From contig JAAOMT010000436.1 in assembly GCA_016748015.1 (NCBI GenBank), forward strand, positions 687,940-751,939: a stretch of DNA of 64,000 bases. The letters run 5' to 3'. Position numbers and translations under genes: made by a program. Positions 4,553-56,955 of the stretch are shown here, one piece after another. Source of the stretch: Geosiphon pyriformis (taxonomy: Eukaryota > Glomeromycota > Glomeromycetes > Archaeosporales > Geosiphonaceae). Positions within the stretch are counted from its first letter, which is position 1; every line of letters begins with the position of its first letter. Below the pieces are notes generated by a model that saw only the letters and a program-made list of their open reading frames with translations, searched no databases and was not told the DNA's origin.

Positions 4553-6060
4553 GTATGGGTAATTACTCATATTTGCCATAGCAATTAGAAGAACACTTTG
4601 CAGTACACAACAGAAACGACTTGGATTTCATTGAACTTAATTCTCTGCCCTCCTGCTTGATCTGTTTTCCCATTGAAGAACAATCCAGCAGACAATTCCA
4701 AGACTTTTAGAACTGGTTCCTGAATGAGCATTCAGCTGAAACCTACACAGCCTACACAATCTATTACTTTGACCAAGCTTACTTTGAAAACAACTTTGAA
4801 GAAAAAAACAACAATATTAATCAGCTCTTATACTCAGCAACCTTTGAACAACAACCTTCTGAATTCGAATATCTAAATCACCAAATTCACATCTGGATTA
4901 CTGCCCATCAATTAGCTGAAACCTCTTTTGAAACAGAAAAAGAAAGTTACCAAACCACTCTTATTTTTGATTTCTTCCCAAGTGATTCAGATCATTCCAC
5001 TCAAACAGTAACTCCTGAACCAATGGTCTAAGATCCAATGCAAGCAAACATTTTAGCCGCCCTCCAAGGCATACAAACTGCTTTGGGGCAAAGAAACAAC
5101 ATCCCATTACCATTATTTAGAGGTGATACACAAGATCTAATTGAATGGTTGGACAATTTTGAAAGAGCAACCATTGCCAACTAATATGATAATGAGTACA
5201 AGTTCCAAATTGTTGGTGGCTACCTTCAAGGCTCTCCTGCCACATGGTTTTCACAAGAAACCAATGCCAATGTCCAGCACAGAATTATCAAATAGATACC
5301 AGCAGATGCAGAAGAAAACAATACCTCTTTCACTACCCAGTTTGAAAACAAGTTCAGAACCCCAATCTTAATATCTAAATGGTGCATGGAACTGGAAAAA
5401 AGAACCCAAAGTCCTGATGAAGTTGTAACCAAATATGCCAAAGCAAACAGAAAGTTAATCAAGTAAGTAGACTCTGGAAGAAACTGGACAGAAGAACAAA
5501 AGATTTACTCCTTTACAAAAGGATTGAAAACTAACTTATCTTATGCTCTTTGGCCTTTCTTGGCTCTAAAAAACAACTCTACAATGGATATGGCTATTGA
5601 ACTCACCCAAAGGATTGAAAATAACCAAAAGATGCATCTGGGATCCACACTTCCAGTTTTTGCTCCTGCTCCTGTCATGGCCCCTGCTCCTCAAGTAGCT
5701 GCTACTTTTTTTGCTGCCCAAACCCAAGACCCAAATGAACAATTGATAGATAGACTCACAGCTAATTTTGTCTGGTTATTAGAACCATTGGCACAAGCAG
5801 TCAGAGATAATTAGCAATCTCCCTATCAAAGACAGCAAAATCATGGCCCACCTGTGTGCTATTGTTGTGGATTAACTGGATATTATTCAAGAGATTATAA
5901 CAATCCTCCACTGCCTTCTTCAGCTCCCAGAAACAATAACAACCAAAACAACAGACCCAACAACAACAACAATGTCCCCAATCAAAGACCTAATCATGCC
6001 AACATCAATTTTTTTGGAGAGGATCTCCTAGTTGAAGTTGCTGTTTATCAGCCTTTAAAC
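4553..6060 (+). pseudogene. E1 Gag (degenerate)
   Basis: The frame opens at ATG 4553 and is interrupted by stops such as TAG in place of CAG. A Gag core lies at about 5040-5640. It includes PLPLFRGDTQDLIEWLDNF and YLQGSPATWF on one side of a frame change, and TEEQKIYSFTKGLKTNLSYA on the other. A Pro/Ala-rich linker follows. The zinc knuckle at about 5857-5900 reads CYCCGLTGYYSRDY, where CCHC is expected; His and the last Cys have both become Tyr. Gag would form the particle shell and bind RNA. Confidence 0.75.
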
Positions 6061-6299
6061 TAGTAGGCACATTTCCAAAAAGTGAGAGTACAAGCCAACC
6101 AGAAAAAAACTCCTTTTATGCTTTTAACTTAACTGATAATGACTATAACATAGATGAACTAGCAATCAACACCTCAGAACCAACCAGAAAGAAGAAGAAA
6201 GCCAAGGTTGATTTCGTTCTAGACCCCAACAAAGCCTCAACTTCTGCCGCTGATAACAATGAGCCACCAAAGGCTAAAGTTTTTAAGAATTCTCCAAAG

Positions 6300-6878
6300 T
6301 TGGAATCCCCAGAAATTGTACAAAAATCTGGACCCTATTCCATTGTTAAAGATATCATGGAAACCTCAGCACATATTACCTTTGGCCAGTTAATAACCCA
6401 CCCACAGTTTAGAAAGGATTTTCACAAATCCTTGATTCCAAAAAAGAAGACACCAAAAACCAACAAGCGTCCTCACCAAGCTGAACTTGCTGACAATAGC
6501 AATGTTATCCCTCTGATTTGTAAAGCCCAAGTGGCTGAATACTTCATTGACTTAATTCTAGACAGTGAATCATCTGTTAGTGTTATTGCCAAACACTTTT
6601 TGGAAGCAATTGGTAAAAGGATTGATAAACTTTCCACTAGACCAATAACCAACATACATGATGACAAAAAGAAAGGACTGGGTATTGCCAAAGCTGTTTC
6701 TGTCCACATCAATGGAATCAGTATTGAAACTGACATGGAAGTTTCTGAAGCCAAGGAATACACCATCATTGTTGGCAATGAATGGTTCAAGAAAACAAAA
6801 GCTTTACTTGATTATGAACTTTGTGAATTAACCATCAGATATGGTGAGAAACCCATTGTGGTTAAGTGTTGCCATTGA
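6300..6878 (+). pseudogene. E1 aspartic protease region
   Basis: This open frame of 192 codons contains FIDLILDSESSVSVIA (catalytic DSG changed to DSE, Asp kept), then VHINGISIETDMEV and IIVGNEWFKKTKALLDY, the flap and C-terminal landmarks of Gypsy proteases. It would process Gag-Pol. It sits between Gag and RT as expected. The next 300 bases hold a short Lys-rich stretch and a small Cys cluster, CAQCWCNK...CKSC, at about 7165-7215. Confidence 0.75.
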
Positions 6879-7193
6879 ACAACTTTCCCAGTACCCAAAC
6901 AAAACCAAGAAGAAGAACAATCAGATAAATCAGATGATGAAGAGAGCAATGAAGAAAAAGAACAAGAAGAGCAAGAAGAAACTACTAAACTCGCCTATAC
7001 TACCTTCACCAGCAATGGCAAACCACTGAACAATGTTAAAGCAGACAAAGAAGAAATCATTGTAAATGGCAAGCTGATCTGCTGGCTTTATTATGATATT
7101 CTTAAAAGAACTTTTGAAAGAAAACCTGGCAAGAAAGCCAAATACAGTTTTTGGTAGTATGGTCCTTGTGCCCAGTGTTGGTGCAACAAACTC

Positions 7194-8740
7194 TTGTATT
7201 CTCCAAGCAATGAATGCAAATCATGTCTGATCTATTACAAAGATTGGGAACCAATCAGTTTGATACCCAGAGAAGAATTGAAAGAAGTACAGAAGTCCTT
7301 TGAGAATGAACCACCTGAGATCCAATCACTGGTTGTAGAACAAAAAAAACCTTCTCCAGAAGAAAGAAAAATAGACATTGAAAATTTGCTGGCTAGAAAT
7401 AGCCCAGTTATTTCCAAAAAAGATGATACCCCTGGATGTACCCATGTAATACAACACACCATCACCACCAGAGAAACTCAACTCATCCATTTGAAGCCTT
7501 ATCAATCCAATCAGCACAATGATGAGTTTATCAAGAAAGAGATAAACTGGATGAAAAAACTTGAATTCATACAAGAAACCAAGAGTGAATGGGCTTTCCC
7601 AGTTGTAGTGATATCCAAGAAAGGTGGAACACTATGCTTCTGTGTCAACTACTGCCAATTAAATGCCATTACTGAAAGAGACATGTACCCACTTTCCAAG
7701 ATTGATGCAATATTAGATCAATTCAAAGATGCTGCTTTCTTTTCAATTATTGACTTAACTGCTGGATTCTGGCAAGTAGAGATGGATCCAGAAAGCAGAA
7801 AGAAAACTGCCTTCATTATCAAGTATGGCACCTATGAATTCACAGTCATGCCTTTTGGTCTTACCAATGCCCCTTCCACCTTTCAATGCTTAATGGATAA
7901 AGTATTTGAATCAGTCAAGGAAAACTTTGTTCTAGTCTATTTGAACGACATAATGGTATACTCAAAAACCTGGAATGAACATCTGGAACATTTACAAAAG
8001 GTTTTTGACCTCTTCAGAAATGCTGGCCTCAAAATCAACCCAATCAAATCTTTCTTTAGAAGACAATCCACCCAGTTTCTTGGTTATCTTATCACAAAAG
8101 ATGGAATTTTTTCTGACCCAGCCAAAGTTAAAAAAGTCCAAAACATCAAACAACCAATAAACATTTATGAACTATGTTTTTTTCTTGGTTTGGCCTCTTA
8201 TTATCGCAAATTTGTCAAGAATTTTTCCAAAATTGCCTTTCCTCTCAATCAGCTATTCAAGAAAAATGTCAATTACCATTGGAGAACACATTAGCAAAAA
8301 GCCTTTGAAACTTTAAAGAAAAAACTGGTTACAGAACCCATTCTCAAGCAATCTAATCTAGATTGACTCTTTATTCTTCACACTGATGCATCTGGCTTTG
8401 AACTTGGTGCTGTTTTCTCTCAGAAAAATGAAGATGGCAAAGAACATGCCATAGTCTATGTCAGTAGAACTCTTTCTCCAGCAGAACAGAACTATTCAGT
8501 CACTGAACAAGAATGCTTAGCAGTAGTATGGTCCACCAGTTACTGGAGTAAGTATTTTCTTGGTGTGAAGTTTTTGGTGGTAACAGATCACCAAGCTTTG
8601 GTTTGGCTGTGCAACAAAAAGAGGCTAGAACACAAACAGATAACTCGCTGGATACTCCACTTGGATAAATTTGACTATGATATTTAACATTGCAAAGGAG
8701 CTAATCATCAAAATGCCAATGCTCTCTCCAGACTTACTAT
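7194..8740 (+). pseudogene. E1 reverse transcriptase and RNase H
   Basis: The open frame 7194-8294 holds most of RT: FPVVVISKKGGTLCFCVNY, YPLSKIDAILDQF, FWQVEMDPESRKKTAF, MPFGLTNAPSTFQCLMD and the catalytic box as LVYLNDIMVYS (YLND, first Asp lost). After a stop at 8292 the same frame gives RNase H: LHTDASGFELGAVFSQ, YSVTEQECLAVVW and VTDHQALVWL (catalytic D, E, D visible), ending in NANALSRL near 8730. One stop lies inside HCKGANH. Apart from the point changes the family fit is very clear. Confidence 0.9.
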
Positions 8741-9012
8741 CCAGTAACAGAACAATTCTCTTAAACCAAACCAACTTAATTATTAGTAATTTCCCTTTTT
8801 TGACAAACACGATAATGGACTTGGACAACTATTCTGTCTTAATGGAATTTTTGGGTAAAGGACAATACTTACCAAAATACACATAACAACAAAGAGAACA
8901 TTTGCACAAACAATCAAATTTCTATTTAATTTGCTAGAACCAACTTTATAAAAAAAATAGAAAAGATTCTGATCATCCTCAGAGAGTCATCAGATTTGAA
9001 GAAAGAGAAATT

Positions 9013-10060
9013 GTGATCTACAATATGTATACTGATCTATTAGCTGGACACTTTGGAAAAACAAAAACAATTCAGAAAACTCTAGCTTGCTATTATTGGC
9101 CTACCTTGGGAAAAAACATTGCTGAATACATTAAAACCTGTGATATCTGCCAAAGAAGAGGAAAACCCAATCACAAAGAAGATATTCATCCAATCTTTGT
9201 TGGTCAACCCTTTGACAGAATTGGTATAGATGTTGTTAAACCTTTAACAATAACTCCTGATGGCAACAGATATATTATCACAGCTACTGACTATCTTACA
9301 AAGTGGGTAGAAGCAAGAACCACTCCAGACCAAACAGCAGTTTCAATAGCCAATTTCATTTATGAAGATATCATTTGTTGTCATGACTGCTCCAAAGAAC
9401 TTTTATCTGACAGAGGAAGAGCTTTTCTCAGTACACTTGTTGAAGAACTTTGCAGAAAAATGGGAATACATTACAAACTTTCCTCTTCTTATCACTCCCA
9501 AACAAATGGCCTAGTAGAACATTTCAATAGAACACTATGTAAAACCCTAGCCAAAACCAGCAAAGAAACAAACTTATGGGACAAAGTACTGCCTTCAGCT
9601 TTGTTTGCTTATAGAACTGTAAATCATGACATAACAAGTTATGAACCCTTTTATTTACTCTATGGACAAATGGCAACCCTACTAATAAAAACTGACATTG
9701 AGACAATACTCTTTGAAGAAATAACAATAGAAAATTACAAAGACATTTTGCAAAGAAGACTTGGTATTATTCTTGACTCATTAGTAGAAGCACAAATAAT
9801 TGTCTTTGAAAAGATAAAACCATTCTAAGAGAAGCTTAAAAAAAAGAAAACATATAAAACACTTTCCTTAAGTGTTGGCAACTTAGTTTTAGAATACCGT
9901 TCAGACAGAGACAATGTCTATGGTAATAAATTCTTTAACTGGTAGAAAGGACCCTTTATAGTCAACAAAGTTTTAAACAATAGTTTTTATATTTTACAAG
10001 ATCAATATGGAACAATCTTCAATAATTGCCTTGTTCATGACACATGACTCAAGAAATATC
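9013..10060 (+). pseudogene. E1 integrase
   Basis: The open frame 9013-9828 starts in the zinc-binding domain (AGHFGKTKTIQKTLACYYWP, then CDICQRRGK). The catalytic core follows with all three acidic residues: IGIDVVKP, LLSDRGRAF and GLVEHFNRTL. Reading past the stop at 9826, 9829-10060 gives a GPY/F-type end, KGPFIVNKVLNNSFYILQD, with stops. It would insert the cDNA; the 4-bp duplication around E1 fits its past action. Confidence 0.88.
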
Positions 10061-10792
10061 ACAAATGACCTGATTGGTTATTTGTTGTGGTAATACTGAC
10101 CCAAATGATCAACAAAAATCAGATATAAATAAATGCATCATTTTCAAAACAGAGATATCTTCAATCGATATAAACAATTATTTCCTAGATCAAAACATTC
10201 AAAACATTTTCTACACTCTTCATGAGCACTAGATCAAAAATTATCCAAATGCTACTCTGATCATTGGAAAACAAACCATCATAACTGATAACAGTGGAAC
10301 ACATACTGTTATTAGACCAAAGAAAACCACTACCAGAAGAGAAAAAATTAGCAAAATAGATAAGTATTTGCTGGAAAACATAACAGTAACAATACTTACA
10401 CCTTCTATGACAATTGAAAAAATGATTAAGAAAATCTTGCCCATAGACAAAAACTTGTCATATGAAAGACAACTAGAACTCTATGGTTGTCTTGGTAAAA
10501 TCATAGAAGAAATGAAGCTCATGAAGAAAACAACTTCAAAGATACAAGTGGAAATTTTGGGCATTATACATTTAGATATCCCAAGAGTTTTGACTATTAC
10601 AAGAAGAGCCAAAACTTTTATACAAAGATTTGGTCTCTTGGATACAAAGCTTATTTTGTCTCAAGTACTATACACTCTATTCACAAAAGACTTCAACAAA
10701 TTAGTTAGTTTTAAGTTAGACAAAACCCTTCAATTAAAATACTCTATAAATAGCTTGATTTTGCCGGAGCTTAATCTCTTTGGAGAGAATGA
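10061..10792 (+). pseudogene. E1 3' ORF of unknown function
   Basis: Between integrase and the 3' LTR, 10368 onward is open for 151 codons, running to a stop at 10821 inside the LTR. The text is Lys- and Leu-rich: MLENITVTILTPSMTIEKMI, then LSYERQLELYGCLGKIIEEM. No chromodomain or envelope signature is visible, and there is no signal or membrane segment. Upstream text (10230-10360) continues in a related frame. I do not recognise it. E2 and E3 also carry an ORF at this place, but the sequences look unrelated. Confidence 0.45.
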
Positions 10793-11533
10793 TGTTATGG
10801 TTGAAACTCATAATTTTTATTAGTTATCACATGTATTAGCCACTAATGTCATATAATTAGCCACTCTATTTTTAGATAGTAATCATTGATCTAATCAATG
10901 ATCTGACCATTGACCTAATCATTGACCTGATTATTGACTTAATCAATAATCTGATCATTGACCTGATCATTGACCTGATCATTGACTTAGTTGTTGACCT
11001 GGTCATTGACCACTTTCAATAACTATATAAGCGATGAGTCTCTTAGTTATAGAAAATCATCTCTTAGACAAGAATCAAATAAATAAAAATAACAACTTTT
11101 ATCTTAATCACTCTCTTATTGCTAATTTCTCTTTCTCTACCTTCAAGTATCCGAACATTTTAGGATAAAAAATTACTTGTTGGTCTTTTCCTGTTTGAAT
11201 AATTGTAGTATTTGAAAACTATTTGTATAAACATAACTGAAGAGCACAAGTTGATACCTGATATTTGAATTCTAAGAGTGCTGATGTGAAGGCATAGAAT
11301 TAATACCAGTGGTGATTAATTGTTAACAGTACAGACTATCCCTCTACTTTCAGATTCCCCAGTTATCTTTGAAAAAAATAGCGACTAAGATATTTTATGA
11401 GACTGATCTTGCACATTGAATCTATACTTATTCAATTCACTCTTTAAAGTTGAATTCCTCTTTGATTATTTCCATCACTCTATAATCCTGTTCTTCCTTG
11501 CTATCTGTTAGCTTGTTACTCCAACCTGTAACA
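10793..11533 (+). repeat. E1 3' LTR (741 bp)
   Basis: It matches 3871-4502 end to end, including TATATAA (11024-11030) and the TAACA end. It is about 109 bp longer, which is nearly nine 12-bp units. The purine-rich TTTGGAGAGAATGA just before it (10780-10792) is the likely polypurine tract. Confidence 0.9.
10881..11012 (+). repeat. 12-bp tandem repeat in E1 3' LTR U3
   Basis: Eleven head-to-tail units close to GATCATTGACCT lie just upstream of the TATA box. Several include the palindrome TGATCA. The 5' LTR has two units. Confidence 0.85.
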
Positions 11534-13957: not shown

Positions 13958-16900
13958 ATGGACCAAGACCAACTCAAAGAAACACTCCTAGCTGTCGTTC
14001 GAAACGCGTGTCTCGCTTTGGGTGAGTTTTCACTACTCTTCCCATATCCATTAGCCATTTTTCGGTCAACGCTAATTAACTTTTTGCTCATTTAAAGGTG
14101 GCAACGAAAAATCCAAAGAAAACAGCTCAGAAGAATTTTGCTATCAAATGGGTGTTGATTGTTTGGGTTAGTCTATAATAGCCCAGTCCAAATTTAACTT
14201 TTAAGCGATTACATTTTCCGGAATTATCACTGCTTTTCTTTTTAAACCCACAAACACTATTAGCTTCTTTAAGAGATATTACCAATTACATTGAATTGGA
14301 CAAAGATCTTGTAGTTTCTGAGCTTTCAAATCTTACCCTCGAAAAAGATCTGATTTCGATTCTAGAGTTAAACAAGGAAATGAAAAATAAAGTTGAACAA
14401 AATTATATTTACATCTGCGGTATAACTCTTTTACATTTTTTGAATCAAGAAGTTCCCTATTGCCTTATTTTCTAATCTCAATTCACTCACAAATTAGTCG
14501 ACTTAATCACACTAATCACTAATTCCTGCGAGAAAATCACTTCAGAAGATCTGGAAGATTGTGAACTCCTGCAGAGGAAAACACAGCAACAAGCATGCCA
14601 CGAAGCACAAATCAAATTCAAACAGACATTTATTTCATATACTTTGCCGCTGGAGATGGTGCTTCGTGTTGCATGCCAATACTTGGCAATCAATAAACTG
14701 TAGGTGATATCTCTCAATTTATTGGCTTTGAGAAGCTTTACAATATGCCGCATAAGATTTTTCTTTATGATTCAAATATATTATTTTCTTATTAAATCAC
14801 TAGGAAAAATACACAAAAAGAAATCGATAATGCGCGTAATAGTATTCAATGTTGCCTAAATTTCTTTCGAAATTTAGCTGCAATTGAAGAATCCACTTCG
14901 CTCCAAGATAATACATCTAAGCATCAGGTTCTAACAATAAAAAATTCAAACATATTGGAAGAAATAGCAAATTAACAAATCAATTTTCTTTCCAGAGTAA
15001 ATTAATTGAGTTATATAAAGAAAAACAAATATTTCGTCTTCTCATCGATCTTGCTTCTGATAACCGAAAAGTACGGGATTGGCATATCGTTATACTGGAA
15101 ATATTCTATCATCTTTTTAGTGGTATCAACCCTCAAGATCTATTTTCGGATGCCTCCACAAAGGTACAAAAGAGTTATAACCAAAATTTTTGGCGGTCAC
15201 CCATATGATAACACTTTGTTTTAGGGACCAATATCTCATTCCGAGATGAAGATTAAAGAAAGGACACAGAAGATTCATATAGGCAGGCACGGTCATTGGG
15301 GTGGGACACATAGCATGAAATTGGGCGTGAGTCAAAAATTTTTGCATTTGATTCCAAAATATTCTCAAACAAATTGGCTTTTCATATTTAATAGAAAGAC
15401 AGCTATTTCACAGTACATGGACAAACACCATCTCAGATGCCGGGTCCACAATTACCTGATATGGGTAAAAAGAAGTGGCAAAAGACCAAAATAATGGTAA
15501 ATATTCATAGAGAAACATGATAGTGTTATTGAACTAATCCAATGTTTATCTATTATAGGATGATTATGATAAAAGAAAAATGCTTACCTCCTCTGCGCTT
15601 CAATGTCTTAAAACAGTTGCCTCCGAATTTTTGGAATCTTGTGGATTTTCCAGTGAATAAGATTCTTATTTGAACATATAGTTTTTTTAAATTTAAAATA
15701 TCTGACAAAAATTTGCCAACACAGATTTAGTCTCGGAAGGAAAAAAGGCAATAGAATATGATAAGATGATTCCACAGCATCATAAATACTTTCTATATGT
15801 CGTAAGATTTTTCCTGGAAACTCACTTACTACTTTCAAAGGAACAACAAAAAAAGCAAAATTTACCTAGTGATCTTGACGCGTGTTCATATTTGGATGTC
15901 GTTTTGAAATCAAGCATTATGGAGTTGAGAGGATTTATTTTTATGCTTAAAAAAATGAGAGAATATCAGGAAGCAAAGGTGAGTTTTTAATGTTTATTAA
16001 TCTTTAATCAAAATATTTAAAAAGAGAATTTCACTCGTGTCTTTATTTTAAAAGTCATGGACGGAGTTGCACTTTTCGATCGAATGCTTCCATCAAATGG
16101 TAAATTTGACAAGGCCGTTGATAAATTGAAGTTATCTTATTTGAAAACATTTTTTATTAACCACGAATCATTTCACACAAAGCTAAATGTAGTGAAGGAA
16201 ATCGCTGAATCACCCTACGAAGATTATAATCAGCTAGCAGCCGAATTGCTCACACAAATTTTTTATGAGCAGTCTACATTTGACATGATTCTCAATTTTA
16301 TTCGGGATTACAAGACACAGTCCCTTGGGTAGGCATCCCTTAACTGTAATTGTGAATTTAACTACTATTTAAATTCTTCCTAAACCCATTCGTTTTCTCG
16401 TAGATTCCTGAATAGCCTCGTTAAAATGATTGATCTATTCATTTCTTTGCTTGAAGATTATGCAAGTCAGAGAAAGAATATGAAGATTAACAGAAAGGTA
16501 TCAAAGGGAAAAAAGAAAAGTCAGTATACAAACTTTCAAAAATTTTATTATTTCCCAAAATTAACTCACTCAAAGTTAATTCTATAAAATTACATTGTCT
16601 CGTGGCTTAGACAAGAAAGACGCGAACAGCGACTCGGAGAACGATCAAGAAGAGATAGAGGATCAAATCCAAGAAAAAAAAAATCAAGATTTGGAAAACT
16701 CCGAACGAATATTTCAATTTGAATCCTTTCAGCAAGTAATTACCTAGGCTGACTTGTTCTTCTAAGCTTAAAAGAGCGATCAAGAATAACAATAATGCCA
16801 AATTTTTAGCGGTTTGCGAGTGAGAAGATCGTCGAAATTTACTGCATCCTCTTGGAGACATATCAAGAGCTTGAGTGCCATTCTATCCAACATATTGTTA

Positions 16901-17860
16901 ACATGTTTAATCGAATAGCAATAAAGTGTAGGGGTGGCATAGGAGCATTTTTTAAGGTGAGTTTATTTCTATTGGTTTGAAGAAGATCGCGTTAACTAAT
17001 ACGGTTTGGTTTTACCACAAGTAGCTTTCAACATTGGAACTTTTTCATCGTATTCTCGGGGATCTTTCGAAAAACTCTGCTACAGAAGCTCATCTTAACC
17101 TTAAACAGTTTATTCAATTATGTGTAAGAGAGTTCTTGAAATTTGCGAAATTAGATCCTCTCCTATTGGCTAGTGTAAGTCGATAATCTTTTGACCAACT
17201 AGAAAGGAGTTAAATTATTATTATGTTCAAATTTCCTAACTAATTTTGTCGGGACAATAGATTCTTTTACCCAAAAAGTCTTCAGATTTTTTTTATAGCT
17301 CACAAGATATTGACAAAAAGGAGAAAGGGTACCATATAATTCAAACTGTCAAAAGTGATTAAAGGTATTTTCAATTAATTTGTTTTTTAACTTAGGAAGA
17401 AACCTCAGGAGCTTAAAGTAAGGCGTAAATTTGTATGGGAGGAACAAGTCCGTATTGTGGTGACTGCCCTCTTTGAGGATGAGAAAAAGGAATACTTGTT
17501 TTTCGTTGAACAGGTTAGGACCCTTTATAATTGCTTGTTGCAGACCAGTTAGTTATTCACATATCCACACTGACTACCCCTGCTTTTCTGTTTATAACAG
17601 GTGATTCATGCCTTTAAAAAAGATAGAAAGAAAATAGAGAAAAAATGGATCGACAATGAGAAAGATCCCAAATTTCATGAACGTAAGTTCCTTTTCCATG
17701 ATTGGCTTCTCCCTCATAATTAGCACTCACAATTAAATCAACAACCAATCCAACTTTTTGATAGTAATCTTGGATTGCAATGAAAAAATCATACAGACAA
17801 TCGAGAATGAAAAAATGCGATTACTTCTCAATTTACTGCAACTCAGCACTTATTATATAG
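13958..17860 (+). other. Timeless/Tof1 portion of the fork-protein gene (exons 1-19)
   Basis: Exons 1-10 (residues 1-445) hold the Timeless domain. It opens MDQDQLKETLLAVVRNACLA and continues with VDCLASLRDITNYIEL. Exons 11-15 hold SWTELHFSIECFHQM, KSYLK-type helices and MFNRIAIKCRGGIGAFFKLS. Exons 17-19 hold VFFVEQ-like text and VIHAFKKDRKKIEKKW. The start ATG at 13958 is chosen because the next residues match the usual N-terminus, and exon 1 splices in phase to LGGNEKS. It retains CG dinucleotides and balanced base use, unlike the flanking repeats. Confidence 0.88.
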
Positions 17861-20541
17861 GTATATGACGAGATACAAGTTATAGCTTCTACACAATGGT
17901 GCTTTTTTGTAACATTTCTTCATAAATAACTGTTATATCAGGAAAAGATGGAAAAGACGAAAAGAAAATTGGCATCCAACTCGATAAATCAGTTGATGTT
18001 GAACGTTTGAGAGATTATCAACGCATTATAAAGGAAACCATTGAAAAGCCTTTCAATCCTGAAGGACGTCCAGCCAAGGAGTATTTATATAAAAAACGTT
18101 CGATTAAGCCTAAGTCAAAGGCTCAAAATGCTGAAAAGCCTGACGAACAGATAAATAAGCATGAGAATGAAAAAAAACAAGAGAAATTAAACCAAGACTC
18201 GGAACACGATGATAAGTCTCAAGAAAGGCAAGAAGTGCAGCAGGAGTTGAATGCTGAACATACAATACTCATGAGCAAAGCAGGCGATGTTGAGTTGAAT
18301 ACAGCTGATACAGAATTCCCAGAAAAAGAACGGCAAGAAATGGAAAGTGAGGGGAATGATGATGACGCAACACTTATCAATGAAGTCGAAGAGATTCAAT
18401 TGAATACTCCGGAAATGAAGTCCCCAGTGGAAACTCAAGAGGCGCAACTGAAATTTAATCGTGATGATATTATACACATGAACGAAACTGGGTGTGAATT
18501 AAATATACCTAATATAGAACATTCAAGCTGCATTCAAGGTCCAGTTTTGGGTGCTAATCCTGCAAACCTATCACGTATTCATCGCGTGCCAATTTGGGAA
18601 TCTTATCGACAACAAAAGAAATCCGAGACTCGGGGGGATCTCCAATCACCTGCTGACTCAATTAAATTTGCTTTTAGTTCCAACAATTCGAATTCAGATG
18701 AAACCCATAGTGACATGTGCAAATCCAAAGAGTTCAAAACAAAAGACAGTTTTTTGGATGATATTGATTCCGATGAAAGAGAAGACTTCAGTGGGACACT
18801 AGAGTTTTCATTGGATGAAGATTATGATTCTGATTATAAGGAAAATGCTATTGAGACTTTAGATGGGTCTGAATTTGATGAAGGTTCTATCGATGTTCAA
18901 GCTCGTTATCTGGAAGATTCAGATGATATGGAAGATTTTGCAGTCGACGAAGACGAAGCAGAAGATGAAGAAGAGGAACCTGAGAGGGAAAACGAAAAGC
19001 AGTTGGAAAATTGCGAGGATTCTGATGTTGAAGAATCTGTGGATAGTACTAAGGAAGAACATCTCACGAGTATCACTTCATTAAATGAAGACATACAGAC
19101 GGAAAACAATTCAGAAAGAGATTTCGATCTCTCATCCCAAGACTCCAGGTTTGAAAATAAAGTAAAAAAATCTCTCTTTATCGAATATGAAGCGGTGGAG
19201 GAAGATGATGAATACATGGGCATGGGTGGAACAGATTGTGAAGACGATGAAGACGATGGAGAATCATTGGTTGATTTTATCACTAATGATAGACCCACAA
19301 CTCAAAATGAGTATACAACGGCGCGAAATTATTGGCAGTAAGTCTTCCAGGATAAGATCAGCCTCCATTTCAACCTTGAATCACTTTTCAATATTTTTTT
19401 CAAATTAAAAGAGAAAAAGAATTAGAGCAAGATCAAGCTGAAGTTACCGCTTTATACAAAGACATCACTACGGGTCGCCTTCGAAAAAGAACCCGTGGGG
19501 TGGAAGGGAGAATTTCTATAGATGATGATGATTCCTTTAAGCGAAAAAAGAAAAATAAAAAAATGGAGGATTCAGATGAAGAGAATTGTAAATATCTCTT
19601 AATATATATTAATTTCGAGCATCTAAAAAACTAGATAGTAATGTTATTTACCCCCAATCCCTTTGAATTATGGATAGATTCCGCCTTCATGCGAGCAGGC
19701 AAAGATGATATTAATTATGATGAAAGATTGGAGGACCTCAAATTTGGTGATATTACTTCATCACAGAATGACCAACAATCCAAAAATCAATCAATGGAAT
19801 TGTTCTGTGGCATCTTTGAAAATGAAGTGAACGATGAGTCTAGTAAACAGTATGAAAAATATGGTGGACATTTGAATACTTTTTCAAATAATGGCGAATC
19901 ATCCACATCGTGGGAATTTAATGAGGTTGTTCTTTCGTCTTTGGTTAGTAATTAAATTGATAACAAATTTTATTTTTGAGGATATAATCAGTTTCGCACA
20001 AAACTCACGTTAAATTTATTGCTTACATAGGCTGAAGAGGAAAAAATAGATGGTTTCGAAAAAGAGACCAATATTTTTTATTCTTGGGAGGCAAAATTTA
20101 AGGAAACGAATAAATTGAAGTCTTTTTCACCCGAGGTAAATGATTCACATAATTATACTGAAATTTACGCTGAATTTGTGTTATTCACAAAATTATTTAT
20201 TTTATACTAAAATATCATTAGAAGCGCAACTCTCTACTGGACATATCTCCCAGGAAACTTATTTCATTCTCAAATTTAGATGCCAAGGGTCGGCCTAATC
20301 TAGCAACTATGAAACCTGTTTTTCAGACAAAATTAAAACCAGCTTTACTAAAACCGAAAGCATTTTCTTCCGAACCACAGGCTAATCGAGTCGAAAAGGT
20401 AAGTTGAATCAATTTATCATCTTGACTGATTTATTACAAATCTCAAATATAACAAGATATTTCTAATCTTAGCAAAAACCTATAAAGCAAAAGAAAAAAG
20501 ATTACGAAGGAATGGAGAAGCTTAGGCAGGTTTTAGGCTAA
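13958..20541 (+). CDS. TOF1: Timeless/Tof1 (Swi1) fork-protection protein fused to a Mrc1/Claspin C-terminal core
   Basis: I read 25 exons: 13958-14021, 14098-14166, 14264-14419, 14498-14699, 14804-14927, 14996-15163, 15225-15326, 15395-15496, 15559-15652, 15725-15978, 16055-16328, 16404-16519, 16611-16735, 16810-16956, 17025-17174, 17261-17328, 17396-17513, 17601-17682, 17765-17860, 17942-19337, 19412-19587, 19639-19943, 20031-20135, 20222-20398, 20473-20541. All introns are GT-AG and every phase fits except one missing base in an A-run (16102-16104). The protein would be about 1579 residues. Timeless landmarks are LALGGNEKSKENSSEEF near residue 20, HIGRHGHWGGTH, LSYLKTFFINHESFHTKL, RFASEKIVEIYCILLETY and VWEEQVRIVVTALFED; GRPAKEYLYKKR (about 880) closes the Tof1 part. 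An acidic linker with SQ/TQ sites follows. Then comes a Mrc1/Claspin-like core at about 1247-1331 (EYMGMGGTD, then VTALYKDITTGRLRKR). In other fungi these are separate proteins that travel with the helicase, pause forks and relay the checkpoint signal. The role here is inferred from both families. Confidence 0.85.
19160..20541 (+). other. Mrc1/Claspin-like core and tail of the fork-protein gene
   Basis: Within exon 20, a KKSLFIEYEAVEEDDEYMGM block is followed by GGTDCEDDEDDGESLVDFI. After the splice at 19337/19412 comes EKELEQDQAEVTALYKDITT, then GRLRKRTRG and a D-rich patch. This order (E-E-D-E-aromatic, GxGGxD, acidic, basic helix, DIxxGxLRKR) is that of the Mrc1-like domain of yeast Mrc1 and Claspin. 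Exons 22-25 continue with NPFELWIDSAFM and a Lys-rich end, KKKDYEGMEKLRQVLG. SQ/TQ sites fit ATR/Mec1 targets (DKSQ, VETQ, LSSQ, PTTQ, TSSQ). Confidence 0.75.
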
Positions 20542-20898: not shown

Positions 20899-22841
20899 TC
20901 AAAATAATTGTTTCTCGTAATTCACACCATCTCGCAGAAGAAATTTTAAGTTGTAATCATGGGGTAGGAAATTTAAGGAATGCCCGTGTCCCGTAAGATC
21001 AATTGCCTTGGGTCTGCCGGTCCTCAGATCAAGCTCTGGTTCAAATGAGAAGAATGCTAAAGTGTAGGCTGTGATAATTTGAATATCTCGAAGTGCCATT
21101 TCAGAGCCGGGACACCTTCGGCGACCCCGACTAAAGTTCTACACGTAATTGATGTAGTAAGTAATAAGACAACTTCAATTAAAGATTAAATTCTCAATTT
21201 GATAGCAGATTTATAAGTGGGTTCAAGGTGGCTTCAAAAAAAATAGGCATTTTTCAAATTGTAACTCACCCAAGGGTCGTAAGCATAATCAAAGTTTCTC
21301 AATTTACCATTTTCGTCGAGATATCGGTCAGGATTAAACTGGTCCGGGTTTTCATGTAATTTCGGGTTCATATGAATACCGTGAATATTCAGGACCACAA
21401 TACTACCAGCCTTGATCAGGTATCCACAGTAATTATCATCCTTCATCACTTGATGTGGAAGTGAGAAAAACGTCACCGGTCTTTTAAAATATAAGAGCAA
21501 ATGAAATATAAAAATGAAATATGGTTGTATCATATAATTTCAAGATTAAAAAATTCGCGGAATACTTGCCTATACCGTAAACTCTCTTTGACGGTAGCCT
21601 TCAAATAATGCAATTCGGACTCTTGCTCAATTTTCATAAAATTTCCTTTTCCCACCACATGATCTAATTCCGTCTGAATTTTGCGTTGCACCTCCGGATA
21701 CGTGGCCAATAATGCAAATAACCATTTTATTGATCCAATTGTGCTATGCGTGCCGGCGATAATTATATCATTGGATATGGTATTAATATCGAACCGATCA
21801 AAAACATAACTTCCTTCTTTATCCTTAATAAATTTGTGTGTAAAAGGGTCGGCCACAAGATTTTGATCCACTTTTACAGTGGTTAAAAGATGACCCACAA
21901 TACTTTGGTTACTTTCCACTCCATCCCTATCTAGATCTTTTTCAATCTGTGCTATCATCATGTCGAAAGATTCGTCGAGATCCTTACGTGTTTTTTTGGC
22001 TTGGTTTTCTAATCCGTTACCGATAATGGGAATGTAGCGGAGCCAAGGAAAGATTTCAAACGAATGACCTTTAGCTTCAATAAAGTCAAAGACTTGTTGA
22101 ATTGCTTTTTCATACAAGAGAAAAGCTGGACGGTTTTCTGGTGTTGTGACAATGCTGGGACCATAGATGATTGTCATGAAAATCGACATTATACAATGAG
22201 AAATTTGATCGACAGGGTTGAAGGGTGATTCAGAAAAATTGTGAATTCCTTTAAGGAAAATTTTCATTTGTTTATGGATAATAGGGTGGTAGGTGGTGTC
22301 AATGACACTTTGTCGAAATGCATTCGCCTCAAACATTCGCATGATTTTCCACCAGTCAGAGTACTAAGTTATCAAGATTTGAGATTGAGTCCATCAAAAA
22401 AATGAAATATCTCTTATGCTTACCGGGGCTAATGCAACGCTTTTACTTCCTCTCATAACAATCCGATTGAAAAGATAACTATCCTGCAGAAATTGAGTCA
22501 AATATGATTCATCCAATTTGAAACATTTTAATTACACATACCGGCCTCGAAGCATAAACCACTCCCCTATTCAAAAACAACTCCTTGCCAATCTCATGAT
22601 CATTCACCACGATCCATCGTTCCGCCCCCACCCTAACCTCGTAGATTGATCCATACTGATGCGCCAATTTCGTGAATCCAAGATGAAATGGAAAGCCAAT
22701 TTGGTGTAAATTGCCAATGATTGGTAATGGAATCGGAGAGGGAAGTGGTAAAGTGCCGTCAGGATGTTTTCTATTTCTCCTGAGAAAAAGAAAGTATAAA
22801 TAAACGGTGAAAAAGACGGCGAAAAGAATTAAGTTTAACAT
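20899..22841 (-). CDS. Cytochrome P450 monooxygenase, membrane-anchored
   Basis: Five exons on -: 22841-22542, 22483-22424, 22363-21570, 21480-21270 and 21138-20899, coding about 534 residues. It begins with a membrane anchor, MLNLILFAVFFTVYLYFLFL, then a basic RRNRKH and the Pro-rich hinge PLPSPIPLPIIGNLHQIG. Later motifs are I-helix IAGTHST (usual AGxDTT; Asp replaced by His), K-helix KESLR (ExxR), FNPDRY, and the haem loop FSRGRRRCPG with the Cys ligand. It would sit in the ER membrane and oxidise a lipid or other small substrate with electrons from a P450 reductase. The substrate cannot be told. An upstream ATG at 22913 is in frame, but 22841 gives the better anchor. Intron 3 uses a GC donor. 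Confidence 0.93.
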
Positions 22842-23008
22842 TTTTGGATAAAAAATTTTTCTATATAATTTGACAAAAAAAAAGTGGGCAGTCGACATTG
22901 CAAATGTCGTCACATATCTGTATATAGAAATTAGTCACGCTGGCTATGGCTTGTTGCATAGTCCATAATTACACCAATTTTCACATCTTTCGAAAACCCA
23001 ATATATTC
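22842..23008 (-). promoter_or_regulatory. P450 upstream region
   Basis: This 167-bp stretch lies between the P450 start and the hAT element. The element therefore sits close enough to influence the promoter. No definite TATA box is called. Confidence 0.35.
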
Positions 23009-36770: not shown

Positions 36771-38350
36771 GTGGTGACTATTGGAACAATAGGAAAGGAC
36801 CACTCCTCATACAGAAAAGCACTATTTTAATATTTTCGAAAAGACCTAGGAATACCAGCAGGAACTGCTTATGCAGAAAGTGATTTTTGTAACTATATCA
36901 ATGCAAAAATTGACTGCTTGTTAGGCCGTGCAACTGATACAAGAAGACTTGGAGAACAAATCTATCAAAGCTTACTAGGGTACTCAACAGCCACGACTAC
37001 CCGAGCAATTGCTAAAACTCTGTGCATAATTAATACAGACATTAAATATTATGTGGCACAACGATTCTCTCAAGTACAACAACCAGTGGAATCTGACCCT
37101 AAGGAATACAAAAACGAATCCAACAACCCCATAACTGCCCAAGCCAAGTCCACAGTCAACAAGAAACCAAGAGTCCTCTCCTCAACAACTTCATCATACT
37201 ATCAGACACCCCAAAGTAGAATTGTATTCAATCCACTCCCAGAAACCCAGTCAAAAACACCACAAACTCCTGAAAATCCACACTCTTGGAATCAACACAG
37301 TTGGACCAAATCACTAGGAGAATACGGATTGCTGTTTGGAAATCTTACCCCAGCAGCCGGTCAAACAGAAGGAAACCCATCAACTTGGGAACAGCCACCA
37401 GCACAAAACCTAGCAGAATCAGCATCTTCCCTGACGGAAAAAACAGCTATCTTACAACCTATTGGTTCAAGCGACAAAGGAAAGCAATCAGCATTAACAC
37501 CCGGAGAACACTCGAATATGCGGACACCAATCTTTTTAAACATAACCAGTAATACTCCACCCATTAACCGGATCATGGCTTACCAGGATATCACTAAATT
37601 GGAAAAATTCTCTGGTGAAGAAGATAATACATATTCTTGGATCGCAGATGCCGAAAAAACAATTACCACTAATGGTTGGAATGACGACCGCACAGTTCAG
37701 GCACTGCCGTTCTTTCTGACTGAAACTGCCAATTTGTGATACCAGAGCCTGGCAGAGAAGCCTACCTCCTTTACCGAGTTTAAACTCACATTTCTGCAAT
37801 ACTTCTGTGACCCCAATATGTTAATTTGATTGCAGAATCAATTCAGCATAATTAAACAAAAAGATCACGAAACAGTAACTACTTATCTCGGACGATTCAA
37901 TTAAATCCTGTGTCAAATATTAGCTATCAAAAGGGACTACTACACTGCAGCACAAGTTCTTAATCAATTCATTAAAGGATTGCGGAGTAGTATTCTAAGA
38001 TTCATAAGACCCCATCATCCAACCAGTTTACAAGACGCTGTCACTCTCACTCACAATTTTGAGTCTGCAGAACAAGAAGTGAATCATACCCAAGCCATTA
38101 ATTTAGCCATTAATGGAACCTTTAACATCGACACAAAGATAACCCAATTGAGTGAGAAACTAACTCAGAAAATTGAGGGATTCTTAGCCAGAACTACAGA
38201 AACTTATCAACCACCCCAATGGAGAGAAAATAACAACAACAGCAGATACCCACAACAACAGAACCATTAGCAACAGCAACAATCTTGGAGATCCAATCCC
38301 CACAACTGCTACTACTGCCAGAAACCTGAACACATTGTCCATGACTGCAG
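36771..38350 (+). pseudogene. E3 Gag (degenerate)
   Basis: It opens at GTG 36771 with VTIGTIGKDH. The conserved N-terminal domain is at 36790-37100 and the Pro/Ser-rich linker at 37140-37570. The Gag core runs from KLEKFSGEEDNTYSWIADAE through KGLRSSILRFIRP. A Gln-rich stretch follows, then the zinc knuckle CYYCQKPEHIVHDC (38307-38348). A few stops interrupt, at sites such as TGG, CAG and CAA. One frame throughout. Confidence 0.82.
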
Positions 38351-38919
38351 AAGGAAGATCATGGACCAAAATCAAGGAAACTCATACCAGCAACCCAGAT
38401 ATTAGCAAAACATGGTACCCCAATATTCCATACCTTAAAATCAACCACCCCTATACCCACAACAAGTCCCATACACTTAACCACTGCCCCAGAATTATTA
38501 TCAACCACCACCAATGACACAAGCAATCCCTCACTATCAAACTTCCCCTTACAGCCTGTTCAGACCTCGAGCTATAGACTATAATCAAGAATGGAGGAAT
38601 CCCAACAACAATCAGATACAAACCAACAGTGGACTGTTTCGACCAATCTCTCGCGGTTCTGCCCAATCTCGACCAACACCAACTGGATACCCGAATCAAG
38701 CTTCCTATCTCGGTCTTATGGAAAACCAGAGTTTTGATAAATCTACACCTGTGGAAGAGGGGGATATAGAACGAATCTTTCAACCTTCCAAGCAAACAAA
38801 AAGCAATATCCCACCAGCCACTATTACTGAAGACACCACCTTAGCCACCATATTTCCTTTTGACATTGATAATTTGAACACACATAGCCTTTTTAGTGGA
38901 GCAGCCATTAATCAGGATA

Positions 38920-39240
38920 AACCAATAACGGCCCTATACACTGATGCCAGAGTTGGAGGAATAGACATTAAATTAATCCTGAATAGTGGATCAGCTGGTA
39001 GCATAATTACGAAGCAGCTTATGGACCAACTAGGTTGCCAAGTAGACCATGCTGCTACTGCTCAGATCATTACAGTAGATGGGAACACAAAAACCCCAAT
39101 AGGAGAAATTGACAACTTCCCTTTTGAGATTAATGGAATCCAAATCCCTACCAAAGTACTCGTCATAGAAGCTACTCAATATCAAGCTCTAGTAGGAAAC
39201 AACTGGTTGTCAAAAGCCAACACTACTCTCGACTAAAACA
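38920..39240 (+). pseudogene. E3 aspartic protease
   Basis: ALYTDARVGGIDIKLILNSG, then SAGSIITKQL, PTKVLVIEATQYQALVGNNW and LSKANTTLD. The fold landmarks are all kept, but the catalytic Asp is Asn (AAT, 38982-38984). A stop at about 39235 follows. Confidence 0.8.
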
Positions 39241-39529
39241 CCCAAGAACTTCAACTTATGTTCAATGGACAGCATGCCTGAGTCCCAACTACGTGCAGAC
39301 ACTTTAAAAACCAATGTACCAAAGAACCCCTTATTGAATTCAAAAACACATCAATGCCACCAACCATTGAGACCTATCAGGTTTCATGGGCAGACGATTA
39401 TCGAACTGAACTACCCTTACCACCAACCTGGAAAGAAAAAGAAAAAAGCAGAGCTGAAGAAAAACCCCAATTATCATCACTAGGATATGTAACCTCAGAT
39501 CAAAAAAACTTATTTTACCAACTCCCAAG

Positions 39530-40170
39530 ACTAATATGTGTCAATTGTGAGAAAAAACTATCTACTATGGGCACATGTATCGGGGACAACAAAGAATGGC
39601 CCACTGCCACCAAATACTATTGCAGGTCTTGTTTACTGGAAAGATTTGGATGACCAAAATGACAAGACAAGTGGGACCACACATTGTGCCTCATATGTGG
39701 TAAAATCCTGCCAGATAAAGAACTCTAGAATGATGTGCCTGGCAGAGGAGGAACATGTGACAAGGCTTGTCAATACACCATATTAATCAATGATTGGATA
39801 TGAAAGGGAACCCTTATCGAAAACACTTGGAAATGAACACTCAACAGGCTAGACAGTTATCTACATGATGACCACAAAATCTGGAGAATGGCAAGCGCCA
39901 AGGCCGAAAGCACCACACCCAAAGAAATATGAGAAATTAAGGACAACCCTTGGATGCCCGAATATACTGGACCTGACTACCCTAAGGATGATTTCTTTAC
40001 AAATGACCCAGATGCATTTTAGAACCGATATCAGGAATTGGCCCCAACTCGCGAGGAACAGGAGCAAAGGTTGGCTGATTTGAATACCAAACTATGGAAT
40101 CACTGTTTGATCCCCTGTCACTTCCAGTACTGCGATGAATGTGATCTTATGTTCAATCTGCCTCCAAGAA
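39530..40170 (+). pseudogene. E3 Cys-rich module between protease and dUTPase
   Basis: It contains four or more CxxC-type pairs: CVNCEKKLSTMG, YYCRSCLLERFG, LCLICGKILPD and CDKACQY, then CHFQYCDECDLMF (40115-40155). The spacing suggests zinc binding. The same module recurs at 49310-49930 (E4), 55445-55990 (E5) and 59600-60200 (E6). It is not a standard Ty3/Gypsy domain that I know. It may bind nucleic acid or hold the polyprotein together. Confidence 0.6.
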
Positions 40171-40334
40171 TACTGTTTCCAATCACCAAACTACCTGAAC
40201 CCAAAGAAGAGGTATTGATCACCGAGGACATGTTGTTTCAAGATCCAACTGAGGATACCGAAACAGAACAGTATCTCATGTATCTTGACCTCTCCAAAGA
40301 ACTAGAGCTAAAATGGTACAGTGACAATGAGGAA

Positions 40335-40760
40335 GGAATCTGCCCTGAAAGAGCGCATAACACCAATGCCGGTTTCGACCTACAATACCCTGGACAATCA
40401 CCCATCATTATAGCCTCACATTCCCTCGTAAAAATAGATCTTAAGATAGCATTAGAAATTCCTGTTAGTACAATGATACAAGTTGCCTTTCGATCTAGTC
40501 TAGCCAAGAAAAGAATCAACATAAAAAAAGGAATCATCGATGCCGGTTACATGGGAAACATCATCGTGATGCTACAGAACAATTCGAACAGACCCTACAA
40601 AATAGAATCACAAGAAAAGATTGCTCAAGCTATCTTCCTACCCCTAGTCAAAATACCCCAATTAACCCCAGTAACAACCTGAAAAGAGTTAGGTCTCACT
40701 GCCTGAAGAATCAACAGGTTTGAATCAAGTGGAAAAGGAAACGTACCAGTTAATTTCATG
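40335..40760 (+). pseudogene. E3 dUTPase-like domain
   Basis: The trimeric dUTPase motifs appear in order: AGFDLQYP (motif 1, 40366), FRSSLAKK (2, about 40486), GIIDAGYMGNIIVMLQN (3, catalytic Asp kept), EKIAQAIFLP (4, about 40612) and a worn motif 5, RINRFESSGKG (about 40707), with a stop just before it. The enzyme splits dUTP to dUMP and so limits uracil in new DNA. It lies between protease and RT in the same frame. Confidence 0.85.
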
Positions 40761-40928
40761 GAGGAAGACAGTGACCAGGTAGAATTTATTTACACCAACA
40801 CCATCATCTCCATTCCCCCATACCAACAATACATCCTCAAGGTGAATCGAAAGATCTAAGATCAAGCCTTATTATTCGAAGCCAGTCCCGAAATCTGTTC
40901 CCTAGCCGATGTTGCTAATCTATACCTA

Positions 40929-42560
40929 TTGAACAAAGCCCATAAACACTTCAAAATCTCCATCCACAACTCGACAGAAGATGTCATTGAAATCCCCGAA
41001 AGGACTCTCATCAGTTCCATATTCGCAGATAGTCAGAATCCTAAAAAACTCCAGTCCATTCCAGATTTCGCACAATTATTTTTATTCTGTGACATTACCT
41101 CACAAGTATGGAATTTGCCAAAAGAAAGTTACTTGTTTACACCAGAAGAGATCAATAAATTGAATTTAGGAAATTTAAGTACCATGCAACAAATGCAACT
41201 CAAAGTTCTTCTGAATCAGTATGCCAATGTTTTTGCCAGCAAAAATGAGTTTGGATGCACTGACATCGTGAAGCATCAGATTGATACAGGAGACACTCAA
41301 CCAATTAAGCAACGAGCTTACCACGTACTCCCATCTGGTGATAACCTAATTAAGCAAGAAGTGCAACAGATGCTTGATAATGGCCTAATCAAAGAATTGT
41401 TAAGCCCTTGGTTTTTGCCAGTAGTCTTAGTTACCAAAAAAAATAGAAAAGTACGATTCTGCGTAGATTATTGAAAACTAAATAGTGTCACGTGAAGAGA
41501 TAGTTATCCCACTCCCCTCATCCAGGAAATTCTGGACAATCTAGGGAAAAAGAAATGGTTCTCGTCATTAGATTTAGCAAGTGGTTACTGGCAAGTTGAA
41601 ATGAACCCCAAAGACAAAGGAAAAACAGTGTTTACTACTCAAGACAGAAACTTCGAGTTTAATGTAATGTCTTTTGGACTTTGTAATGCTCCTGCCATAT
41701 TTCAACACTTGATGGATGTAGTATACAAAGGAATCCTTTGGAAATCAGTAGTAGTCTACCTAGACAACACAAACATGTTCTCCGAAACATTCGAAGACCA
41801 TCTGCTCTATCTGCAACAAGTTTTCGAACACCTTCGTAGTGCTAGATTGAAACTCAATTCCGAGAAGTGCTTCTTTGGAAAAACCAAGTTAAAATTCCTA
41901 GGACATGTAATCGGCAAGGACGGAGTTAAACCCAATCCAGATAAAGTACAAAAAGTCAAGGATTTTTCAGCCCCAATCAACCTCAGAGAATTATGAGAAT
42001 TTCTAGGATTAGCAGGATATTATCGTCAATTTGTCAAAGATTTCTCGAACATCGCAAAACCACTCTATCAATTGTTGTCTAAATACGTATCATACTTGTA
42101 AAAGGAAGATCAACAGAAAGCATTCAATTATCTCAAGCAGCGATTGATCACATCCCCAATTCTGATTTACCCAGATTTTACTAAACAGTTCATTATCGCT
42201 ATGGATGCCTCAAAAAATGCTCTAGGAGCAGTCTTATCACAGATAAGACCGGACAATAGAGAACACCCAGTTGCCTATGCTAGTCACAGCACTAGCCCAG
42301 CAGAAAAGAATTACAGCACAACAGATCTGGAATGTCTTGCCATTTATTGAGCCATACAAACTTGGAAACATTACCTCAGTCAACCATTTGACCTATATAC
42401 CGACCACAAAGGACTTATTTGGTTACTCAACAATCCACAACTAGAAAGAAAATATGTGAAATAGAGTACTTATCTGCAACAATTCTCACTCAAAGTTCAT
42501 TACAAAGAAGGATCCAAGAACACCAATGTCAACAGTTTGTCGAAGATGCCACAAACCTAA
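40929..42560 (+). pseudogene. E3 reverse transcriptase and RNase H
   Basis: RT: NEFGCTDIVKHQIDTGD, VQQMLDNGLIKELLSPW, FSSLDLASGYWQVEMNPKD, MSFGLCNAPAIFQHLMD, catalytic VVYLDNTNMF (YLDN) and FLGLAGYYRQFVKDF. RNase H: IIAMDASKNALGAVLSQ (DAS), STTDLECLAIY and YTDHKGLIWLL, ending NVNSLSK near 42545. Three or four stops lie at CGA or TGG sites. Confidence 0.9.
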
Positions 42561-55300: not shown

Positions 55301-55998
55301 TTACTATCAACAATAAGCTGAGAAGAAAAAAGGAAAGATAAGGAAAAAGAAAAAAATATATCTGAAGAAATCAAACCAACAGAAAACACAACCAAAGAAT
55401 GAACAAGTTCATACTCTGTTCACCAGCCGCTACCACAGCCACCATTTATTCTACTTAAATGCAAAGACTATGGAAAGAAACTCTTATCCATGAGAGCATG
55501 GATTGTACCAGACAAAGACCACTGGACATGAACATATTACTACTGCAAACTGTGCCATTGCAAATGCTATAAATATTCAAAGCACCAAGGCAAGTGGAAC
55601 AACAAACCATGTCTTGCTTGTGGTGAACAGCTATTCGACAAAAAGATGTGGAACGACATTTCTAGTCAAGGAGGAACATGCAATGCTTTATGCCAGTACA
55701 TGATTCTCATCAGTAATTGGGTAAGTTGTGACATGCCCATAACAGCAGCTTGGCATAAAGTGATTAACTGATTGGATGATTACCCACACGATGAGGACGA
55801 GATCTGGCAAATGGCAAATACCAAAGTCCAAGGAGCCACGCCCAGTAAAATTCTGGAAATTAAAAACAACCTGTCTGAACAGGTTGACATCATCTTTGTT
55901 CTAAATCCAAATGCCTTTCTTGACATAAAAACCAATCCAAAAGACTTCCATGAGCATTACCAAAACTTGGCACTATTACCAGACAAAATTAGAGATAT
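52301..55998 (+). pseudogene. E5 Gag-protease-Cys-rich polyprotein (degenerate, truncated)
   Basis: The start codon site reads GTA where E4 has ATG. N-terminal domain at 52301-52660 (ESAFNFYINKKIAYLLETLV). A Gln-rich linker lies at 53200-53310. Gag core 53320-53960 (FEKFTSEENDAQTWINDITK, FIRGLRSSILQ). Zinc knuckle at about 54055-54100 (CHNCGKQGYLRANC, His to Tyr). Protease 54700-55010 (LILNSRLAGSIITKQL, Asp to Asn and Gly to Arg; KATQYQALVGNNWLTKTNAI). Cys-rich module 55445-55990. Same frame all through, with stops. Confidence 0.82.
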
Positions 55999-56934
55999 TG
56001 TTTAGCATAAAATTACCCTTATAAATCTTATTATTAATTAGCATATATTATTATTTCAAATTATCACTTATTATATTAGCAAAATATCCGAAATTATCAT
56101 TTAATTAATAACCCAATTGGTACATAACACAAATGTAATCTAATTGTGATGATCAATTATGCAATACCCCAAACTATGTAACATTCAAAAAGTTCGCCGA
56201 AATTTGTAAGAAATTTGCCAAAATATCTAATAGTTCACAGAAATAACTTGTAGTTTGCCAAAATATATCTTTAGTTCAGCAAAATTATAGAAAATAGCAA
56301 AGTTCAAGTTCATAAAATAGTGTTATGACAAGTTGTATAAAAGAAGAGCTTTTCTTTTCAAGGAAATGTATCTTACTTTAGATTTATTTCTTAAAACTGT
56401 TCCTACACACACAAAAAGAAATAAATATCAAATAATTCGAAAAACCAAATTCTTTAATTATTGTACTTGGAAAATCCCCAAAACCCAACTAATATTTCGA
56501 AATTGATTAGCTACCAATTTCAGTAAACTGTTAGTGACTCCAGGTCTGAATAGAAAACGTTTCTCTTGACAGAATTCTATTTTTTTTACATTTTTTTTAT
56601 TTTTCTTTTATTTTCTGATTACAATCATTAAGGTAGCCTACAGACAAGATTCCTGTAGAAGAGTTGACTTTCACAGCAAAGTAACTACACATTTTTAGTG
56701 AGCTTTCAGACAAGCAGTTCCTGAGAAAGAGTTGACGTTTACTACAACATAACTACATAAAGTAACTGGCAAGGAATTGGCCATTCTACTTATAAGCCCA
56801 GCAGTTCAAATTATAAAAGATAATTTGAAGATAAATTCAGTTACTGGAGGTTCAACCACATCCAGAAAATGTGAATTCACAGCAAACAGGCATCAACAAC
56901 ATTTAAAAAAAGAGACCAAAAACCTCCGATAACA
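55999..56934 (+). repeat. E6 5' LTR (936 bp)
   Basis: It starts TGTTTAGCATAAAA and ends CCGATAACA. AGTTTGCCAAAATAT-like direct repeats lie at 56190-56290, and GTATAAAAG at about 56336 is the likely promoter. Confidence 0.85.
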
Positions 56935-56955
56935 TTTGGTGCTCTCTTACGGAAA
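56935..56955 (+). other. E6 primer-binding site
   Basis: TTTGGTGCTCTCTTACGG shares the first 13 bases with the other elements but then differs. It lacks the hairpin partner. Confidence 0.6.

Follow-up and report, generated by a model that had tools for sequence, protein, structure and literature searches.

Can Tof1/Timeless and Mrc1/Claspin, which the accessible parts of the literature present as separate proteins in the yeasts and animals studied, be encoded as one chain? This question is raised by a gene on the plus strand of a 64-kb stretch of DNA from Geosiphon pyriformis, the whole of which is referred to as the window. We discovered one gene encoding both a TIMELESS and an MRC1-like domain, and we consider it probable that it represents a natural fusion of a Tof1/Timeless core to the C-terminal histone-chaperone half of Mrc1/Claspin, in which a covalent link would replace docking, with a probable Csm3 encoded by a separate gene of the genome. 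A description of a natural Tof1-Mrc1 fusion was not found in the open-access literature. A preliminary description of this DNA had proposed a fusion of Tof1 with Mrc1; the single fused gene stands, whereas two whole proteins do not, only the MRC1-like domain and the C-tail of Mrc1 being recognisable. The gene is composed as follows:

13958 to 20541, plus strand: whole fusion gene, 26 exons, 1532 amino acids
13958 to 17860, plus strand: exons 1-20, Tof1/Timeless core, residues 1-810, assigned by Pfam, PDB and Mycena matches
17942 to 19337, plus strand: exon 21, 1396 bases, with a single open frame running from the end of the Tof1 core through the acidic linker into the MRC1 domain, whose first half it encodes
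18064 to 18099, plus strand: last Tof1-like motif GRPAKEYLYKKR, residues 851-862, aligning with GKKASDLLTK of the Mycena proteins
18100 to 19158, plus strand: linker, residues 863-1215 (353 residues), from the spliced translation
19159 to 19571, plus strand: MRC1-like domain, residues 1216-1328, assigned by Pfam, with the intron 19338-19411 inside
19412 to 20541, plus strand: exons 22-26, containing the remainder of the MRC1 domain, an SAF motif (residue 1335) and the C-tail to residue 1532, from the spliced translation

Exon ends were set manually, guided by GT-AG signals and open frames, and then checked by script. In the resulting model all 25 introns (61-105 bases) follow the GT-AG rule, the phase is intact at 25 of 25 junctions and the single stop codon is terminal, following residue 1532. 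The bounds are those already given in the preliminary description, as is the preserved phase, the number of exons being 26 instead of the 25 counted there. The profile search proposed there matched both domains in the spliced protein, i.e. TIMELESS (E 1e-31) and MRC1 (E 1.8e-18), both far above the Pfam cut-off of 25 bits; a third line, Katanin con80, stays with 17 bits under its own cut-off of 27.

The N-terminal part is a Tof1/Timeless protein by several lines of evidence. The TIMELESS domain (PF04821) covers residues 37-290 with 110.7 bits, and matches to solved Tof1/Timeless solenoids reach past this first domain to residue 706: PDB entry 6xwx_A (E 3.4e-30) aligns in two pieces, residues 33-252 and 346-706, and human TIMELESS (7pfo_K; E 3e-20) in two pieces as well, residues 37-551 and 558-688. 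Entry 6xwx_A is listed in the PDB as uncharacterized, and we take it to be the crystal structure of Chaetomium thermophilum Tof1. The better of two Tof1 matches from Mycena (P0001) shows 23% identity across 56% of the query. Both Mycena proteins can be aligned to approximately residue 860 and have their own tails beyond, showing that the Tof1 core is alignable up to its C-terminal side. The Tof1 text had previously been thought to extend to about residue 890 and the motif GRPAKEYLYKKR to lie at 18060-18095; the motif itself stands, shifted to 18064-18099, and the alignment reaches about residue 860. Both Mycena proteins are listed with the C-terminal Timeless family PF05029, which was unmatched in the fusion in the Pfam copy used; as the Mycena protein scanned was likewise unmatched in the same library, this absence is no test. 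The tail of budding yeast Tof1 (982-1238) is required for topoisomerase I recruitment (PMC10247859; published data are given here and below as in the accessible portions of the cited papers).

The C-terminal part carries an MRC1 domain (PF09444; 67.9 bits vs a cut-off of 25, profile positions 2-115 of 141). An Mrc1 core had been noted before at residues 1247-1331; Pfam supports the domain and moves its bounds to 1216-1328. The two exons encoding it each exceed the cut-off alone (32.8 and 35.1 bits) and cover consecutive segments of the profile without overlap (2-55 and 58-115), so the match does not depend on a single acidic run and an artefact of acidic low complexity was ruled out. In S. pombe Mrc1 the MRC1-like domain comprises residues 701-837 and binds H3-H4 tetramers, and the Hsk1-bypass segment overlaps this domain and connects to Mcm2 (PMC11380579, PMC11383432). 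Using the S. pombe residue numbers from these two papers, set gap-free from the RKR triplet (784-786) with no Mrc1 sequence aligned, we compared the histone-contact positions. The triplet serves as the register anchor and is therefore not counted as evidence. Three of six independent positions are identical (E763=E, D767=D, L774=L), an agreement which at E and D within an acidic stretch arises easily by chance; F758 is replaced by Y, an aromatic exchange, M755 by A and N787 by T. The acidic DSE motif of Mrc1 corresponds to SIDDDDS at the same offset, and the C-tail past the matched domain has about 200 residues vs about 183 calculated from the published residue numbers of S. pombe.

Whether both parts belong to one reading frame is decided in exon 21. 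The preliminary description had placed the end of Tof1 and the start of Mrc1 together in this exon without a stop and had argued against a chance read-through. Our data bear out both statements, exon 21 containing 465 codons without a stop, which in random sequence of equal composition has a probability of about 2e-16, and 18096-19170 alone being open by chance with about 1e-12. A codon score whose frequencies were taken from the Tof1 core gives +0.43 bits per codon for that core itself, about -0.55 for introns and, for the linker, +0.59 in the frame of the gene against -0.03 to -0.55 in the five others; for the MRC1 domain the frame of the gene is at +0.55 and one other frame at +0.20. The open frame together with the coding-like codon use shows that the coding frame of the Tof1 core continues through the linker, and a chance open frame was thereby ruled out. 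The D/E content amounts to 31% across residues 896-1250, and a Pfam scan of the linker matched no family. The other 25 exons have only 45-254 bases, and the long exon is placed exactly at the join; it may be a mark of how two genes merged.

The same stretch is where a production of two proteins from one locus would have to be encoded, be it by a poly(A) site or promoter within exon 21 or by cleavage of the fusion protein, an explanation we regard as unlikely. AATAAA/ATTAAA hexamers are indeed present in exon 21 at 18186, 18498, 18661, 19080 and 19156 (5 in 1396 bases vs 13 in the 5188 bases of the gene remainder), but they do not discriminate because the sequence is so rich in A+T. Moreover, codon use remains coding across the linker, and as the Tof1 frame runs without a stop up to the MRC1 domain, a short Tof1 would require termination within an exon.

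The assembly (124,688,122 bases, 406 contigs) was searched exon by exon, with only the best candidates being scored. The TIMELESS profile gave one match (E up to 0.001), located at the fusion locus, and the MRC1 profile gave two (E up to 10), which are two exons of the same locus. With the whole fusion protein as query, all of the 26 matches (E up to 10) fall at the fusion locus; by this search, neither the Tof1 nor the Mrc1 half occurs a second time in the assembly. A separate Mrc1 gene had been named before as a possibility to be checked; these searches returned no MRC1-domain match elsewhere in the assembly, and the domain is present in the fusion. We judge it improbable that a full Mrc1 lies elsewhere, missed by the assembly or too diverged, in which case the gene described here would be a Tof1 that has captured an MRC1 domain. 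Such a gene could have escaped an assembly in 406 contigs and a search by exons and best candidates, the genome searches for Mrc1 having covered the MRC1 domain and not the N-terminal half; however, the MRC1 search to E 10 returned only the two exons of the fusion locus, and a search of the same kind did reveal a weak Csm3 candidate (E 0.32). That the gene reflects an assembly joining error, a non-functional read-through or a decaying gene is very unlikely: the fusion has been seen in a single genome and in no relatives, which counts in favour of an artefact, but its 26 exons are intact without internal stop, both domains are well above cut-off, the join lies within one open exon and the assembly holds no second copy of either half.

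Not all of Mrc1 is represented in the fusion. Ahead of the MRC1 domain there are 353 residues, i.e. the linker, vs 700 in S. pombe Mrc1 (PMC11380579). The Timeless-docking segment is known from Claspin (284-319 with F317 and F318) and Mrc1 (F325 and F326) (PMC8634136); an FF dipeptide of the docking kind is absent after residue 746 as judged by motif look only, a diverged form being possible. The N-terminal half of Mrc1 was looked for by motifs within the fusion, the genome search covering the other half. SQ/TQ clusters for checkpoint kinases contain at least three such motifs per 100 residues. By motif count there is no cluster past residue 863, i.e. in linker and Mrc1 part, where the maximum is two per 100 residues; the one group of three in 100 in the whole protein (484, 505 and 530) lies within the Tof1 core.

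As for the mechanism, the Tof1 C-terminus of the fusion continues directly into the linker and the MRC1 domain. In the replisome the path of Claspin/Mrc1 starts on Timeless and crosses Mcm6 and Mcm2 towards Cdc45 (PMC8634136). Tof1/Timeless is located ahead of the helicase, at its front side (PMC11383432, PMC8634136), and the position behind the helicase assumed in the preliminary description is not supported. The C-terminal region of Swi1 was reported to bind FACT, and Swi1 and the histone-binding domain of Mrc1 were proposed to form one histone 'distribution hub' (PMC11380579), a model that we count in favour of the fusion reading. In the fusion, the acidic linker of approximately 350 residues would lead away from the C-terminus of Tof1 and bring the MRC1 domain towards Mcm2, to take over parental H3-H4 there. 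Being covalently linked, Mrc1 would no longer need its N-terminal segment for docking on Timeless, so that this segment could be lost; in S. pombe, disruption of the docking site results in hydroxyurea sensitivity (PMC8634136). The histone-relay half of Mrc1 would thus be retained and the checkpoint half lost or much reduced. Expressed as one protein, the chain would fix both the Tof1:Mrc1 ratio and the position.

As for the third member of the complex, a Csm3 family search of the genome yielded matches at E 0.32 and E 0.89, both weak, the better one lying within a four-exon candidate of 219 residues at locus L004 (minus strand, 2200-1293). The candidate matches PF07962 with E 1.7e-4 and 21.9 bits, under the Pfam cut-off of 25, and DUF4100 with 16 bits, likewise under its cut-off of 27.9, and a comparison with the PDB gave chance-level matches only. 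We regard it as a probable separate Csm3/Swi3/Tipin gene. The genome moreover encodes a frame of 573 residues with an FHA domain and a kinase domain (L014, 1306-3027, plus strand), whose closest match in the PDB is Chk2 (E 7.5e-69), Rad53 (E 7.9e-50) being one of many further kinases matched, indicating that a kinase of the type served by Mrc1 elsewhere is encoded. At loci L022 and L025 on contig C314 of the same genome, kinase-like motifs are found close to two FHA matches, possibly a second FHA-kinase. Tentatively, and with clear reservation, we extend the fusion reading to a rebuilt fork protection complex, in which the Tof1-Mrc1 chain would act as a histone hub at the fork front, the docking and checkpoint-mediator half would be gone and the still-encoded Chk2/Cds1-type kinase would be activated otherwise.

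Several observations weigh against the fusion reading and its mechanism. The fusion is predicted from DNA sequence. Three protein searches revealed no second species with it, nor did scans of contigs from viruses and prokaryotes, and its occurrence may be limited to a single strain. The full-protein database search gave two matches among 6745 candidates, both being Mycena Tof1 proteins with no MRC1 domain listed, and searches with residues 1205-1360 and 560-690 gave none among 278 and 201 candidates, respectively; as the method requires shared five-residue words, these negative results say little on relatives. The contig scans gave 19 (viral) and 41 (prokaryote) pattern matches and no relatives. 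Within the Mrc1 part, the contact positions M755 and N787 are changed, the count of identical positions is weakened by the acidic surroundings and by a register taken from residue numbers instead of an Mrc1 sequence, and the KAF motif contacting Mcm2 reads SAF (residue 1335) and follows RKR at a distance of 36 residues, 13 fewer than the 49 of S. pombe. Neither residues 862-1532 nor the MRC1 region as query matched an entry of the PDB, which is no test of the linker as Claspin was missed even for the domain; an NCBIfam search with the Mrc1 part gave no match either. The S. pombe NTHBS (396-535), which has an Mcm2 contact, is also required for silencing (PMC11383432), and its counterpart was not recognised in the fusion, no profile having been used. 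S. pombe Mrc1 lacking the Swi1-binding segment (208-263) leaves heterochromatin unaffected (PMC11380579), so that the fusion may have been kept by selection for something other than replacing the docking. Finally, the Csm3 candidate scores below the family cut-off.

Recent work, in the portions accessible, divides Mrc1 in two, one part serving the checkpoint and the other histone recycling. A fusion in nature that keeps only the latter would be an evolutionary experiment suggesting which half of Mrc1 matters beside Tof1. The fusion reading predicts that a chimera of Tof1 and the MRC1 domain in yeast lacking Mrc1 should rescue histone inheritance and not checkpoint signalling, and it raises the question of how this organism activates its Chk2/Cds1-type kinase.

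Elsewhere in the window, three regions resemble Ty3/gypsy retroelements by the look of their frames (plus strand):

6036 to 10823, plus strand: Ty3/gypsy-like retroelement region
36831 to 41996, plus strand: Ty3/gypsy-like retroelement region, with a dUTPase-like frame (40023-40682) ahead of the polymerase frames
54317 to 63054, plus strand: Ty3/gypsy-like retroelement region, with a dUTPase-like frame (60193-60759) ahead of the polymerase frames
20899 to 22934, minus strand: frames suggesting a cytochrome P450-like gene, shortly after the end of the fusion gene and on the other strand

Rfam families and tRNAs were not found in the 64-kb window.

Compared to known systems, the fusion resembles Tof1/Swi1/Timeless in its TIMELESS domain and in its matches to 6xwx_A, 7pfo_K and the two Mycena Tof1 proteins. 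It differs from the latter, which have their own tails and no MRC1 domain listed (both) or found (the one scanned), by continuing into the linker and the MRC1 domain. From S. pombe Mrc1 it differs in that the 700 residues preceding the domain have no recognised counterpart, and it resembles Mrc1/Claspin in the MRC1-like domain, the RKR triplet used as anchor, the C-tail of about 200 residues and, tentatively, three of six further contact positions and the DSE-like acidic motif. Csm3/Swi3/Tipin, in turn, is represented by a separate candidate gene in the same genome, outside the fusion.

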